Part shown: piece by piece, positions 46,269 to 47,690 of the stretch
Numbering within the stretch: the first letter of the stretch is position 1
How the letters are laid out: each line of letters opens with the position of its first letter
Assembly (NCBI GenBank): GCA_026398735.1
Contig: JAPLSH010000019.1
Coordinates: 25,304 to 89,303 of the forward strand
Reading direction: 5' to 3'
From: Pseudomonadota bacterium
Lineage (GTDB): Bacteria > Pseudomonadota > Gammaproteobacteria > Steroidobacterales > Steroidobacteraceae
DNA length: 64,000 nt
Notes under the pieces: model-generated
Seen by the model: the letters and a program-made list of their open reading frames with translations, nothing else
What the model was told of the DNA's origin: nothing
Database searches by the model: none
Position numbers and translations under genes: made by a program

Positions 46269-46538
46269 TCAGCGGCGCAGACCTAGCCGCTCGACCATTT
46301 CCTGATATTTCTGCGGCGCCGTGGCCTTCAGGTAATCCAGCAGCTTGCGACGCTGGTTGACCAGTTTTACCAGGCCGCGCCGCGAGGAGTGGTCGCCCTT
46401 GTGGGCAGCGAAATGGCCACCAAGACCGGTAATACGCTCGGAGAGCAGAGCGATCTGCACTTCGGGAGAACCAGTGTCGGAGGGTTCACGGCGGAATTGA
46501 GCAACAATCCCGGCCTTTTTTTCAATCGATAACGCCAT
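46269..46538 (-). CDS. rpsO: 30S ribosomal protein S15
   Basis: [49 protein letters not shown]. Confidence 0.98.
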
Positions 46539-46589: not shown

Positions 46590-47690
46590 TCAAGTCAATT
46601 GCGCAGCCAATTCGTTGAATATGCGGCGTGGTTGTACCACACCGTGCGGTCCGACTTCGCCCAAACCCAAAAATTGGCCTGCAGGCGTATATAAACGGGC
46701 GCGTGCGCAAGCTACTGCACCAGGCACCTGCACGGCCTGGCCGTGCAGCAACCGGGGCACATCGGCCGCGGCGACAATCAGTCCCACCAATTGCGGCAAG
46801 GCGGCATCGGCAGGTAGCAGCACTACCGAGCCCGGGTCCTCCAGGACCTGCTCCAGGCTCACCATGGGGTGCGCATCAAAGGGCTCTACGGCTTCACGCC
46901 GCAAGGCCACCAAGTGGGCCACCGTGCCAATACGAGCTGCCAAATCCTCGGCCAGCACCCGCACGTAGGTGCCCTTAGAACAATCGACGCGCCAATGAGT
47001 ATCGTGGCCGTCTACCCCGAGCAATTGCAGGGATCTGATATCGATCGGGCGAGCTGCCCGTTCCACTTCGATACCCTGCCGGGCCAACTGATACAGCGGC
47101 TGACCGTCACGCTTGAGTGCCGAATACATCGGCGGCACTTGCATGCTGGGGCCATGCATCTGCACCGCCACCTCTGCCAAGCGCGCCTGAGCGTCGTGCG
47201 GCACTGCAACGGTTTGCACCACCGGACCTTCTACGTCACCCGTGCTGGTGCGCAAGCCCAGCCGGGCAGTGAACGTGTAGGTCTTGCGGCCTTCGAGCAG
47301 ATCGCCCGCCACCTTGGTGGCCTCGCCCAGACACAACGGCAACATTCCTGTGGCCATCGGATCAAGCGAACCGGTGTGACCGCCTTTGATGCGGCCCAGC
47401 GCGTAGCGAACGCGCTGCAAGGCTGCGTTCGAGGACAATCCCTGAGGTTTGTCCAGCAGCAACCCTGCAGCGCGATTGAGACCCTCTAACAGACCAGGAT
47501 CCGGCTCAGTGACACCAAACGGCACCACCAGCACCTTGGCCTCGCTGAGGTCATTGGCACAGGTGACGGCAGTGACCGTCACAGGGCCAACACGCGGGTC
47601 CTTGACCTCGCGACTGATGAGCTCGGCCAACGTACGAAGCATCTCGGCTTCAATACGCTGGTGTCGCTGAGTGGGCCCGCTGCGTGCCAT
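46590..47690 (-). CDS. in-frame fusion: truncated RbfA (about aa 1-76) joined to TruB pseudouridine synthase
   Basis: N-term MARSGPTQRHQRIEAEMLRTLAELISREVKDPRVGPVTVTAV...LEGLNRAAG (RbfA) joined to LLLDKPQGLSSNAALQRVRYALGRIKGGHTGSLDPMATGML (TruB); one uninterrupted ORF. Confidence 0.9.
   Translation of the reverse strand: MARSGPTQRHQRIEAEMLRTLAELISREVKDPRVGPVTVTAVTCANDLSEAKVLVVPFGVTEPDPGLLEGLNRAAGLLLDKPQGLSSNAALQRVRYALGRIKGGHTGSLDPMATGMLPLCLGEATKVAGDLLEGRKTYTFTARLGLRTSTGDVEGPVVQTVAVPHDAQARLAEVAVQMHGPSMQVPPMYSALKRDGQPLYQLARQGIEVERAARPIDIRSLQLLGVDGHDTHWRVDCSKGTYVRVLAEDLAARIGTVAHLVALRREAVEPFDAHPMVSLEQVLEDPGSVVLLPADAALPQLVGLIVAAADVPRLLHGQAVQVPGAVACARARLYTPAGQFLGLGEVGPHGVVQPRRIFNELAAQLT

Follow-up and report, generated by a model that had tools for sequence, protein, structure and literature searches.

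Does the single open reading frame (ORF) that stands in place of rbfA and truB in our 64-kb window (the whole stretch of DNA analyzed, 64,000 nucleotides) encode a new bifunctional protein, or does it record the loss of rbfA or an error of assembly? Adjacent rbfA and truB genes form a standard cassette (PMC9514032), and the operon around the fused ORF is otherwise ordinary, reading rimP, nusA, infB, the fusion, rpsO, and pnp, with only six bases between the end of infB and the start of the fused frame (Table 1). The nearest named records to the window are proteobacterial MAGs (e.g., CANFSB010000021). On present evidence, the fused ORF is less likely to be a new enzyme with two functions than to represent either a loss of function in one genome or a slip of assembly.

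Translation of the ORF from its ATG start meets no internal stop, and family models divide it into RbfA (residues 1 to 76) and TruB (residues 77 to 366) with neither linker nor stop between them, confirming the preliminary description of a 366-aa frame that begins as RbfA and becomes TruB at about position 47463. Pfam RBFA matches residues 9 to 78, equivalent to positions 1 to 71 of the 105-position profile (49.8 bits; gathering cutoff, 34.7), and the RbfA motif is present in the form of the AxG interhelical kink, A74-A75-G76, which makes up the final residues of the RbfA remnant. The ORF fails the RbfA equivalog model TIGR00082 (47.1 bits; cutoff, 51.15) and passes the TruB equivalog model TIGR00431 over residues 77 to 281 (208.8 bits; cutoff, 151.45). 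Pfam TruB_N, TruB_C_2, and TruB-C_2 (PF16198 and PF09157 among the matches) cover residues 98 to 357, and both the TruB motif and the C-terminal domain are present; the catalytic aspartate, also noticed earlier, is D110 within GHTGSLDP. The losses are smaller than first described: the C terminus of RbfA is indeed missing, but it amounts to 44 of 120 residues (37%) and not to half of the protein, and the TruB N-terminal leader, likewise absent, is only five residues long (MTSGI) in this genus, such that TruB is nearly whole.

Table 1. Features of the operon containing the fused rbfA-truB ORF (positions within the window)
Feature	Position	Strand	Basis
Fused ORF RbfA(1-76)-TruB, 366 aa	46590..47690	-	Translation, Pfam, NCBIfam
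RbfA remnant, residues 1-76: alpha1, beta1, beta2, alpha2, AxG kink	47463..47690	-	Pfam, G005 protein identity, control model
Deletion junction, junction word GCTGCAGGGTTGCTGCTGGA	47463..47464	.	146 bp of G005 missing
TruB, LLLDKP through stop; G005 TruB minus first five residues	46590..47462	-	TIGR00431, alignment to 1k8w
rpsO (S15), intact	46269..46538	-	TIGR00952
pnp, intact ORF, 698 aa	44069..46165	-	Reading of ORF and operon position
infB (IF-2), intact ORF, 850 aa	47697..50249	-	Reading of ORF
nusA, intact ORF, 498 aa	50269..51765	-	Reading of ORF

We compared the locus with its nearest relative, G005, which is 94 to 96% identical across the window. There, rbfA (120 aa) and truB (295 aa) are distinct genes, and the rbfA stop and the GTG start of truB overlap by 4 nt. 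The fused ORF resembles the separate pair of the rimP-nusA-infB-rbfA-truB-rpsO-pnp operon in G005 and its congeners in position, order, strand, and sequence, whereas it differs from the G005 pair in being one ORF, with 146 bp fewer and the C-terminal part of RbfA absent. Those 146 bp form a single gap in the pairwise alignment, with colinear DNA on both sides, and the deletion proposed in the preliminary description is thereby shown relative to relatives. The gap runs from the third base of rbfA codon 76, which the junction splits as GG/G (plus strand 47464/47463), up to the LLLDKP of TruB; it holds RbfA codons 77 to 120, the rbfA stop, and the TruB start codons MTSGI, and one base is mismatched exactly at the junction. 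Because rbfA and truB overlap by those 4 nt in different frames, a loss of 146 bp (3n + 2) joins the two frames. All other indels relative to G005 in the 64-kb window are 9 bp or shorter. Where they fall within ORFs, their length is divisible by three, they are located at the edge of the frame, or they offset each other, such that the 146-bp deletion alone is seen to disrupt a gene clearly. Over 177 kb aligned on this contig, the second-largest indel contained within the alignment, leaving out differences that break it, is 79 bp. This segment of G005 is missing at L163:11052 (G000:C13), close to where a short ORF ends at its 3′ side (155 versus 160 aa).

At the breakpoints, the exact overlap is just 3 bp, the longest exact word common to both breakpoint regions is 8 bp, and each 15-mer near the junction is found only once in the 64-kb window. 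Imperfect repeats 147 bp apart and alike at 17 of 24 positions flank the breakpoints; this score, for a repeat noticed post hoc, is equalled by 1.2% of random 25-mer pairs from the region. Because the breakpoint repeats are so short, collapse by a k-mer assembler is unsupported and replication slippage is compatible, and slippage between the imperfect repeats is suggested as a possible route to the deletion. The assembly collapse raised in the preliminary description is therefore not supported in its repeat-driven form, though assembly errors of other kinds may account for the fusion.

The fusion is alone among its relatives. In all eight of the other congeners, RbfA and TruB give separate matches and RbfA is full-length; the genes abut or overlap in the seven congeners inspected at base level, and in G002 (L008) a gap of about 0.9 kb separates them, as judged by model ends. 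The junction itself, which the preliminary description proposed to seek in close relatives, was not found in any of these eight, and separate genes in all relatives were part of what it had listed as counting against its reading. More broadly, within the order RBFA is present in 226 of 233 good genomes, and a truncated RbfA-TruB fusion comparable to that in the window was not seen among the 356 genomes with detectable RbfA; papers on an RbfA-TruB fusion were likewise not found in the literature searched. The truncated arrangement would be new only in the sense of not being found elsewhere, and would not be a real feature if it proved to be an error. Residues 1 to 76 of RbfA are identical to the G005 protein and TruB is 98% identical; the corresponding coding differences are 0 nonsynonymous and 4 synonymous in the RbfA remnant and 5 nonsynonymous and 18 synonymous in TruB. 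The remnant thus shows no relaxed selection, and therefore the event is either very recent or an assembly error.

What the truncation means for function can be gauged from known structures. In Staphylococcus aureus RbfA, the AxG kink (Ala70-Lys71-Gly72) touches the 3′ end of 16S rRNA, alpha3 and beta3 span residues 71 to 81 and 89 to 94, and the C-terminal helix reaches S7 (PMC9917171). An AlphaFold model of intact G005 RbfA places, with high confidence, helices at residues 8 to 28, 67 to 73, 75 to 86, and 101 to 118 and strands at 37 to 44, 50 to 57, and 93 to 98. Compared with RbfA, a type II KH 30S assembly factor (6ye5, 7afl), the fusion has alpha1, beta1, beta2, alpha2, and AxG in common but is cut directly after AxG and has lost helix 3, strand 3, and the C-terminal helix; alpha3 and beta3 are missing in both sequence and model, in line with the earlier observation that the last RbfA helix and strand are gone. 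The invariant RbfA residues R89, P92, F96, and D99 all lie within the lost segment. Modeling of the RbfA part, suggested earlier as a check, gave reduced fold confidence, with pLDDT values for residues 11 to 70 of 55 to 77 in the fusion versus 87 to 97 in the intact protein. Because the alignments differ in RbfA depth (about 11 rows for the fusion versus 35 for the control), and shallower depth may itself lower pLDDT, this fall is supporting but not decisive. In the same model the RbfA chain passes straight into the first TruB strand (75 to 81), and TruB is predicted at pLDDT 90 to 98 except for its last six residues. Fusion residues 75 to 360 align along the chain to the structure of E. coli TruB, the tRNA Psi55 synthase (1k8w), with motifs kept, though in the fusion the short leader is replaced by the 76-residue remnant of RbfA. 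Together, sequence and model suggest that the fusion has probably retained the activity of TruB and probably lost that of RbfA.

The explanation we favor, with somewhat better than even confidence, is a recent 146-bp deletion in this single genome. It would have taken away the final 44 codons of rbfA together with the stop, as well as the five codons that open truB, and its product would be a TruB, most likely active, tailed by a partly folded 76-residue RbfA, with RbfA function gone. An in-frame outcome would be favored by selection on truB, because a frameshifting deletion would silence that gene. Cells can survive the loss of RbfA: deletion of rbfA leads to slow growth with unprocessed 16S rRNA (PMC9032327), and its absence costs viability in the cold (PMC9917171). 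We also considered loss of RsgA as a reason for tolerance and rejected it, as RsgA is present and full-length. Against this explanation, one assembly alone carries the fusion, in an order whose good genomes otherwise nearly all keep RbfA, and the remnant's unchanged protein sequence gives no sign of decay as yet. The same facts (a singleton among congeners, a near-universal RbfA in the order, a remnant without relaxed selection), along with the one-base mismatch right at the junction, suit an artefact, in which the assembler followed the wrong strain or took up a molecule that was chimeric or in the minority, hiding normal separate rbfA and truB genes. We hold this to be a credible but distinctly less probable account, since there is no exact repeat for a k-mer assembler to collapse, the lesion lies well within a 362-kb contig, the remaining small indels of the window look biological, and the frame is kept at the junction, which chance would achieve one time in three. 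Should the deletion prove genuine and widespread in the wild population, nature would here provide a bacterium that lives without the full RbfA that nearly all relatives keep.

Two further accounts are very improbable. Full-length RbfA could be supplied by a second copy in the same cell, making the fusion harmless, and in a draft genome of 36 contigs that is 98.4% complete such a copy may sit in the unassembled part; however, searches with the RBFA family, the RbfA protein, and the missing-segment DNA each match this locus alone, with no second rbfA, rbfA fragment, or truB in the rest of the genome, and the second full-length rbfA sought at the suggestion of the preliminary description was thus not found. 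Equally doubtful is the bifunctional polypeptide that it proposed as one option, here read as a selected protein whose truncated RbfA still binds pre-30S RNA and acts in tandem with TruB. The open frame across the junction, the unchanged protein sequence of RbfA residues 1 to 76 with its AxG, and a full-length RbfA-TruB read-through ORF in another member of the family (G091, L054) fit such a protein, but the KH fold is cut after AxG and lacks alpha3, beta3, and the C-terminal helix, its predicted confidence is reduced, the truncated form is absent from every other genome examined, and the G091 ORF retains the whole RbfA and an in-frame ATG just before TruB. Least probable of all is a fixed RbfA(1-76)-TruB whose TruB-tethered helix and kink would contact the 16S 3′ end and couple 30S maturation to tRNA modification.

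Among the long RbfA open frames inspected in the family, only that of G091 has TruB in frame. This 477-aa ORF (C60; L054:1302-2735) joins both domains at the same operon site as in the window; unlike the window's fusion, it has full-length RbfA, a low-complexity, Gly/Gln-rich linker, and an ATG inside the frame directly before TruB. Listed siblings of its genus have shorter frames. It shows that the rbfA and truB frames can become one with RbfA left whole, and the fusion in the window is a different event. Two other genomes of the order, G240 and G267 (92 to 94% complete), have no RBFA match, for which assembly gaps or real losses are both possible. Weak RBFA matches in G071, G136, G173, G345, G410, G403, and G253 were considered as similar fusions and rejected, being mostly contig ends or split matches with none in a TruB-sized frame. 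In G345 (C96, C291) and G253 (C75) the matches are split or partial, the two pieces in G345 lying on different contigs.
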